From: Gammaproteobacteria bacterium HGW-Gammaproteobacteria-1
Lineage (GTDB): Bacteria > Pseudomonadota > Gammaproteobacteria > Thiohalomonadales > Thiohalomonadaceae
Reading direction: 5' to 3'
DNA length: 64,000 bases
Assembly: GCA_002840095.1 (NCBI GenBank)
Contig: PGZL01000007.1
Coordinates: 314,109-378,108 of the forward strand
Shown here: piece by piece, positions 62,118-63,436 of the stretch
Layout: every line of letters starts with the position of its first letter
Position numbering within the stretch: the stretch's first letter is position 1
Notes under the pieces: generated by a model
What the model was told of the DNA's origin: nothing
Database searches by the model: none
What the model saw: the letters and a program-made list of their open reading frames with translations, nothing else
Translations under genes and position numbers: made by a program

Positions 62118-62231
62118 GGGCGCGGCATACCCCGTGCACTCCCTCCCTATTCGAATCCATCCCTGTCAACCAAAGTCTGGGGAATGCGTTACTCACGGTG
62201 TAGATGTTTCATTTCACAACCTGGAGTAACC

Positions 62232-62546
62232 ATGATGAACAAGCAGCTTTTGGTCGCAACAATCCTCGCCGGGGGCATCGCCGCCGCCACTCCCGCCCTC
62301 GCTGACCACAACAGCATTTGGGGTCCCGGCACGGCAAACATGCCCAATGACATTCACAACACCCGCATTGAGGACGACAACGAGACCTTTCTCGAACTGG
62401 TGCAGCAGGGGGGCGGCGCTGATTCGGTAAACCGCTATGACGACGGCACCGACACGATGACGCGCGCCGCTCCCAACCGCATGGTGGATCGCAGCACAAT
62501 GGGGGGCGGCGCTTACTCGGCGACGGGGCGCGGCGGCCGTCCCTGA
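62232..62546 (+). CDS. Small exported protein of unknown function
   Basis: The 104-residue protein has a signal peptide ending 'ATPALA' and a mature part of about 80 residues without cysteines. It is acidic and polar ('NTRIEDDNETFLELVQQGGG', 'NRYDDGTDT') and ends Gly-rich. CTGGAG lies 5 bases before ATG 62232. I do not recognise a family. Its place between the rhodanese and DsrC-like genes suggests sulfur metabolism, but it is separated from the rhodanese by a terminator. Confidence 0.65.
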   Translation: MMNKQLLVATILAGGIAAATPALADHNSIWGPGTANMPNDIHNTRIEDDNETFLELVQQGGGADSVNRYDDGTDTMTRAAPNRMVDRSTMGGGAYSATGRGGRP

Positions 62547-62620: not shown

Positions 62621-62992
62621 TCACTCGACGCTGCCGAACGACCGATCGGAATGATAGGCCGGTGGCGGCAGGCCCGCGATGCGGCTGCCCTGGGTCACCG
62701 GACCGCCGGGGAACAGTTCGTACAGGCGCCGCGTCGAGGTCCGGTCGCACAACACGTCCGCCAGTTCACGCACCAGGACTCGTCCCGAACTGGCCTGCCC
62801 GCGGGTCACCAGGCGGCGCCGCAAATAGTGCAGCACGTCCCAATGGGAGGGCGTCAGGGCAATGCCCTCCTCTTCCGCCAGCCGCAAGGCGATCAGGCGG
62901 TTCCACACCGGCAACTCCTGAAGAAATTCGTCCGGGCGCCGTTCCTTGATCCGTTCATTGAGAATTCGTCCGTCGTAAGGTATCTGCAACAT
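62621..62992 (-). CDS. DsrC/TusE-family paralogue lacking the two functional cysteines (RspA-like)
   Basis: The 123-residue protein shows the DsrC/TusE fold: 'LAEEEGIALTPSHWDVLHYLR' and 'LYELFPGGPVTQGSRIAGLPPP'. In DsrC the corresponding end reads QxCKIAG and the chain closes with a penultimate Cys. Here the first is Ser (GSRIAG) and the C terminus is replaced by 'AYHSDRSFGSVE'. The single Cys ('VLCDRT') is elsewhere. It therefore cannot carry trisulfide-type sulfur and belongs with the cysteine-free, presumably regulatory, RspA group. ATG 62992 lies 8 bases after AAGGAGG. Confidence 0.82.
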   Translation of the reverse strand: MLQIPYDGRILNERIKERRPDEFLQELPVWNRLIALRLAEEEGIALTPSHWDVLHYLRRRLVTRGQASSGRVLVRELADVLCDRTSTRRLYELFPGGPVTQGSRIAGLPPPAYHSDRSFGSVE

Positions 62993-63436
62993 TGCCCTCA
63001 CCTCCTTGCCGATACAGACCTGCCGCAGCAGGTGTCATCGGAAAATGGCCTGACAGTGGCAACTGCAATCCATGCATTAAGGATAGACCAAGGGCGTCAC
63101 CGGGTTATGGGCTGGCCGGTTTACGATCGCGCTTGCAGCGGTGAGATAAAATGATTTACTGAGGTTGGCAAGGCCATAAGTTGCGATTAATGGCGCAGGG
63201 ATTGTTTCACTGCACCGATGGACAACCGACGCTCTGCCAAGGAACAGCGACGCTGACCTTATTGCTGTCGCAGATGGCTGCGGCGGCATGATGCGTTCGC
63301 TCAAGCCGACACACGGCGTAAGGATAAAGCGCATGCTCTCGCGCCAACGGCAGTCCCGGGCTCATCGATGAACGCCGCGCAAGCAACCGGCGTCACGGCA
63401 GCACCCGGGCACACTGCCCGGGCCCTGCGCGGCGCC
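62993..63436. other. Gene-free region between DsrC-like and fccB genes
   Basis: About 440 bp without a supportable gene. It holds a hairpin CCCGGGCA-CAC-TGCCCGGG at about 63402-63420, just after the fccB stop on the minus strand. No tRNA-like cloverleaf was recognised. Confidence 0.5.

Follow-up and report, generated by a model that had tools for sequence, protein, structure and literature searches.

Introduction

DsrC is the sulfur carrier of the reverse Dsr (rDsr) system (PDB 1yx3, 1sau). DsrC proper is recognized by the signature LFPxGP...Q...AGxPxP and by two cysteines of its arm: CysA, the penultimate residue, and CysB, which lies in the motif QxCKIAG. Homologues without one or both of these cysteines, RspA and RspB, were reportedly treated by Venceslau et al. 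in 2014, who are said to have suggested a regulatory role for them. TusE, of the tRNA 2-thiouridine relay, belongs to the same family. It keeps CysA but is without CysB; according to PMC3397948, organisms lacking DsrAB almost invariably have Ala, Ser or Thr at the CysB position. Phages, too, have DsrC/TusE-like proteins from which arm cysteines are missing (PMC8190135, PMC4164917), and PMC8190135 gives five phage sequences with neither cysteine motif. The DsrC family itself is thus known, and missing cysteines have already been noted in its phage members.

Several genes labelled DsrC or TusE, with an annotation as sulfur relay proteins, can occur together in the genome of a sulfur oxidizer. 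In A. vinosum there are four of them in addition to dsrC, and their role, PMC3368242 states, had yet to be established. Here we consider one gene of this family in a 64,000-nucleotide stretch (the window) of the genome of Gammaproteobacteria bacterium HGW-Gammaproteobacteria-1 (contig PGZL01000007.1 of assembly GCA_002840095.1). The original prediction, made from the letters of the window, was of a DsrC paralogue that has lost both sulfur-carrying cysteines, keeps the core fold, and probably binds partners or DNA instead of carrying sulfur.

The DsrC-family gene of the window

The gene occupies positions 62621–62992 of the minus strand. Its frame is intact, extending from an ATG at 62992 to a stop codon at 62621–62623, and specifies 123 amino acids. 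A good ribosome-binding site, the Shine–Dalgarno-like AAGGAGGTGA (62998–63007, minus strand), lies 5' of the ATG, and the GC contents at the three codon positions are 0.69, 0.47 and 0.79. Does the gene encode a member of the DsrC family? The protein exceeds the cut-offs of both the Pfam profile PF04358, DsrC (E 2.3e-22; 79.9 bits against 24.9), and the NCBIfam profile TIGR03342 (E 1.3e-19; 70.6 bits against 53.5). Its membership of the family, as first proposed, is near certain. On the other hand, at 60.1 bits it remains below the cut-off of 191 set for the TusE equivalog, NF008562.

With DsrC the protein shares the predicted core fold and the signature, and DsrC supplies its top matches both in fold and in sequence. 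The differences reside in the arm, the relevant codons all lying on the minus strand. The motif QxCKIAG has become QGSRIAG, with Ser103 (codon 62684–62686) in the alignment column of CysB, while His114 (62651–62653) stands in the CysA column of a 159-row alignment, where TusE, like DsrC, keeps its cysteine. About eight more residues follow, D116-R-S-F-G-S-V-E123 (62624–62647). The matches to eight distinct DsrC and TusE sequences of the PDB end at profile position 112/121, short of this extension. The sole cysteine of the protein, Cys82 (62747–62749), is N-terminal to the arm. Judged by its sequence, then, the protein has no thiol at either arm position, and a lengthened arm bearing the tip of the group described below. 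Both arm cysteines are indeed gone, as predicted; what had been overlooked is that the arm is longer than that of DsrC and ends in a D-x-S-F-G-S tail.

How does the protein compare with the other described members of the family? The want of CysB is shared with TusE, and the want of arm cysteines with the phage proteins, but a single scan of viral contigs with one peptide pattern found no relative of the window protein, a weak result in that no phage DsrC was recovered either. A plasmid collection gave 15 records, all under 60% identical and named tusE where a feature was listed. The likeness to RspA and RspB, as these are described, lies in the loss of cysteines; the extended-arm group may coincide with that type. 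In the literature searched we found no published account of a D-x-[S/G]-F-G tail, a claim of limited reach.

In a predicted model of the protein (mean pLDDT 78) the helical core is confident, while the N-terminus and the C-terminal arm are poor. The last block of the arm, at a pLDDT of 43, is predicted to be disordered. The closest solved structure is that of A. vinosum DsrC (1yx3; E 4.7e-4, TM 0.62/0.68), so that the model, at least, agrees with the claim that the core fold is kept.

A tail shared by a group of DsrC-family proteins

Is the lengthened arm peculiar to this one protein? A search of relatives and of a species-level genome collection gave 50 non-redundant proteins in which the arm continues beyond the CysA column and ends in [D/N]-x-[S/G]-F-G, these being picked by the pattern [DN].[SG]FG within the last 25 residues. 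In an alignment of 47 of them (L085, L086 and the short L175 were omitted) the residue corresponding to D116 is present at 90% or more. Among the 95 tail-bearing rows of the larger tree considered next, the figures are 98% for the Phe, 100% for the Gly and 87% for the Asp of the tail, the invariance of Phe119 and Gly120 being partly circular because the rows were chosen by the tail pattern.

For the larger tree the arm columns were excluded. It contains 159 of 208 sequences, after removal of rows that shared 78% identity or more with one already kept. The tips AGGT and GQGT were accepted as tails, and three rows that the first label had missed (L171, L240 and L257) were added to the group by a hand-written rule. 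A single branch (SH-aLRT 100) sets off all 95 tail-bearing rows, with none of the 64 tail-less rows among them; when the tail labels were shuffled on the same tree, 50 changes were needed on average. A more careful tree of 56 rows places 25 of 25 tail-bearing rows together (support 92/88), and of its 200 bootstrap trees 95% show the tail arising once. The inner forks are poorly resolved because the trees use 105–108 columns. The arm-free tree is independent of the tail and not circular, and the tail D-x-[S/G]-F-G-[S/T] past the CysA position marks a group within the DsrC family that, by its tail, includes the window protein.

What has become of the two cysteines in this group? At the CysA column Cys occurs in four of the 95 rows and is absent from 91, whereas at the CysB column there are 55 rows with Cys and 29 with Ser. 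The loss of CysA is thus nearly universal and that of CysB partial, the window gene having lost both; the predicted double loss holds for the window copy but, as far as CysB is concerned, is not general in the group. The core residues around the base of the DsrC arm (LFPxGP, Q, AG and P) are kept. In the four exceptional rows a thiol at the CysA column coexists with the arm extension. L114 (9956–10318) and L176 (7987–8340), which have Cys at CysA followed by the extension, in the form P-A-D-C-x-D-x-S-F-G, may stand midway from DsrC to the form seen in the window. Three further proteins (L054, L264 and L265), which retain the two cysteines and have an arm with a short overhang (NDCIDLS, for instance), are possible intermediates.

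The family also includes open frames of about 250–280 amino acids that hold two DsrC domains each (L055, of 279 amino acids, L094, L095, G083:C104 and G074:C58). In L055, L094 and L095 the CysA place of the last domain is occupied by Cys and the CysB place by Ser.

Distribution and an apparent link to reverse Dsr

Does the tail-bearing protein accompany the reverse Dsr pathway, or merely sulfur oxidation? To answer this we turned to a sample of 369 genomes drawn from the class. The protein is encoded in at least 61 of them, which were checked tail by tail and include two (G103 and G226) with the deviating tip AGGT. Genomes were taken as positive for dsrA where the best E fell below 1e-30; there are 119 of these, 112 over the cut-off and seven with fragments. 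For soxB the positives number 150 by a compiled list and 148 by the profile cut-off. With the tail-bearing genomes at this lower bound of 61, dsrA is found in 55 of them, compared with 64 of the 308 remaining genomes (p 3e-25 by Fisher's test, kinship ignored), and soxB in 58 of the 61. The excess of dsrA persists within the soxB-positive genomes (52 of 58 tail-bearing against 53 of 92 others; p 2e-5, kinship again ignored), and hence the tail protein appears to be linked with reverse Dsr, beyond sulfur oxidation as such. The p values overstate the link, because the genomes are not phylogenetically independent.

A strict dependence of the tail protein on dsr is not borne out, there being six exceptions among the 61 genomes (G086, G112, G204, G287, G302 and G316). 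Five of the six are drafts in about 200–580 contigs. Two of them, G086 and G287, have strong DsrC matches (1.2e-47 and 1.3e-49) and look as if gaps in their assemblies had cost them dsrAB. G302, a single contig and 72% complete, has three tail-bearing copies, with neither dsrA nor a strong DsrC match; it may be a true exception.

Other DsrC-family genes of the source genome

The assembly contains eight DsrC-family genes in all. Is a true DsrC among them? One of the eight, which has both cysteines (QACKIGGLPKPTGCI), sits in a dsr cluster, and so both the true DsrC and the dsr genes for which the original prediction advised a search are present. The cluster consists of dsrA; a further sulfite-reductase domain that separates dsrA from dsrC, in the place expected of dsrB; DsrF and DsrO, both of which exceed their cut-offs; and DsrM and DsrJ, which are best matches, albeit under their curated cut-offs. 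These genes lie on contig C67 and the window gene on C3; the window gene is therefore outside the dsr operon. A second gene of the source genome, on C67 at 12393 (P0002), ends in a tail like that of the window gene (QASRIAGLPLPPYTTDASFGSAE vs QGSRIAGLPPPAYHSDRSFGSVE).

Contig C67, like related genomes, also carries a second type of DsrC-family protein lacking cysteines (L003, 265531–265836, minus strand), which ends in LPESRRKGGY or near it; its gene and dsrC are on opposite strands, some 6 kb apart. Of 51 genomes in which DsrC was matched, at least 26 have, by eye, another family match that shares the contig of dsrC but lies on the other strand, about 5.5–9 kb away. A tail of the LPESRRKGGY type was read in seven tree rows, four of which (L003, L059, L063 and L070) show that arrangement opposite dsrC. 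Such a protein, encoded near dsrC, may be a better candidate for a dsr-linked regulator. Finally, C1 encodes a very divergent family protein (L008, 96302–96535, minus strand) that ends in AEAKTYMD, lacks the arm cysteines and has no clear kin in the tree.

A possible role

What might a DsrC paralogue without arm thiols do? We favour, tentatively and with somewhat less than even confidence, the view that the window gene encodes a non-carrier that docks, by means of its core and its new arm tip, on what we infer to be a partner of the sulfur-relay or Dsr kind, whose activity it modulates. The mechanism we offer in an equally provisional spirit. The core (LFPxGP, Q, AG and P) would dock on the usual receiver of DsrC, or of a DsrC-like carrier, the candidates being DsrAB, DsrEFH/TusBCD, DsrMK or another relay enzyme. 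The Phe-Gly tip would then enter the site meant for the CysA of a carrier. Being without a thiol, the tip would gate the partner, compete with the carrier there, or tune the partner allosterically, and no sulfur would be moved. Docking without sulfur transfer would be the simplest reading of a core that is kept, a thiol that is lost and an aromatic-glycine tip that is added and then retained.

Alternative explanations

Do the genes nearby suggest a different kind of partner? Upstream of the window gene, on the same strand and 444 nt away, is the gene for the flavoprotein of flavocytochrome c sulfide dehydrogenase (FCSD). On the other side, encoded on the opposite strand, come a 120-residue open frame (62184–62546, plus strand) and then a rhodanese. 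As regards a possible operon with FCSD, the 444 nt gap contains a minus-strand terminator-like site, but at a frequency that shuffled sequence gives as well, the region having two such sites where 1.3 are expected. The product of the 120-residue frame has, by eye, a likely signal peptide and matches nothing in Pfam or NCBIfam. Past the end of the window, upstream of FCSD, L014:5476–7461 (minus strand) encodes a multihaem cytochrome c7/MtrC-like protein with a cytochrome b561-like match. The notion of a gene set between sulfide-oxidation genes is sound on the side of FCSD; on the other side the 120-residue frame parts it from the rhodanese. Nor does the arrangement recur in the group. The orthologue in UBA3588, a genome of the same genus (contig DFMR01000035.1; 85% identical), lies elsewhere, adjoining BacA and a glycosyltransferase.

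At 50 loci of the group the neighbours form lineage-specific sets. The copies of the same genus adjoin a Gate membrane protein, an acyl-CoA-ligase/GNAT protein, CZB, RsmB and MnmA; others adjoin a cation ATPase together with FtsH, or TatC. In a scan of 94 of the 95 immediate neighbours (L157:14–376 was omitted) the commonest families were TatC, HAD hydrolase, Gate, CZB and AAA domain. No sulfur-oxidation family occurs among the 25 commonest of the 146 Pfam families matched, and a fixed sulfur neighbourhood was looked for without success. On the other side of the account stand FCSD, the neighbour in the window, and a further DsrC-family gene near by in two loci (L092 and L164). The neighbourhood thus gives no consistent partner for the group. 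Such surroundings, including those of the UBA3588 orthologue, could indicate a function unrelated to sulfur metabolism, such as that of a small protein partnering the membrane or RNA-modification proteins encoded beside the relatives. We think this unlikely, although it deserves to be kept in mind: the tail protein co-occurs with dsrA, and because the neighbours vary between lineages none of them is a convincing fixed partner. Moreover MnmA could also suit a sulfur role, since it is a client of TusE (PMC3397948).

The original prediction also allowed for the binding of DNA, which would make the window protein a regulator of sulfur genes. DsrC of A. vinosum is reported to bind upstream of dsr. 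The window protein itself is rich in Arg, with a net charge of +3 and a pI of 9.5, and Foldseek matched its predicted model to Fur/PerR/LexA proteins, at non-significant E values above 1. The group, however, is acidic, its mean net charge being -5.8 compared with -1.9 for the CysA-bearing rows, and what sets it apart is its tail at the C-terminus rather than any basic helix. The suggestion therefore finds no support in the group and, basic though the window copy is, we regard it as improbable.

Could sulfur still be carried on some other thiol, CysB in the relatives and Cys82 in the window copy? The 55 group rows with Cys at the CysB column and the conservation of Cys82 in the UBA3588 orthologue might be cited in favour, but the window copy has Ser at CysB, merely four rows keep Cys at the CysA column, and Cys82 sits ahead of the arm. 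A carrier of this kind seems most unlikely.

There remains the placement of the window copy itself. It falls inside the tail group in both the 159-row and the 56-row tree, the arm being excluded from each, its nearest kin being copies of its own genus in the quick tree and Gallionella in the careful one. The core columns alone do not reject a topology that puts the window copy immediately beyond the base of the group (p 0.34). Joining it to the true DsrC of its own genome is rejected narrowly (p 0.048). Joining it to the true-DsrC rows is rejected at p 0.024 in a test that is impure because those rows are not themselves one clade. The shared tail, which stands outside these tests, is the stronger evidence of membership. 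Among the four other genomes of the genus an orthologue is present in UBA3588 only, the best match in the other three being 48–54% identical. Measured against that orthologue (NG86) dN is 0.098 and dS 1.00, a dN/dS of about 0.1, with 18, 10 and 51 substitutions at the first, second and third codon positions; we conclude that the gene is under purifying selection. A true DsrC that has recently lost its cysteines and is now decaying, as the long terminal branch of the window copy might indicate (1.82 in the 159-row tree, 1.69 in the 56-row tree), was looked for and can in practice be dismissed, given the open frame, the dN/dS, the orthologue retained in a second species, the tail, the trees and the topology tests, with their narrow or impure rejections.

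Implications for the DsrC family

The reading that we prefer, docking on a relay or Dsr partner by a protein that carries no sulfur, has a more specific and more doubtful form. The group may be an old DsrC lineage of sulfur oxidizers, of single origin, in which the Phe-Gly tip has taken the place of the thiol, creating a mimic of the carrier that reaches into the active site or channel of a relay enzyme of the DsrAB, DsrK or DsrE type and switches its throughput. This we consider possible rather than probable. Phe119 and Gly120 offer a concrete pair of residues for mutation. The tail motif, visible at one look, sorts out a large group, 91 of whose 95 rows lack Cys in the CysA column, and would correct their annotation. 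If the mimic reading were true, it would represent a new way to regulate the flux of sulfur.
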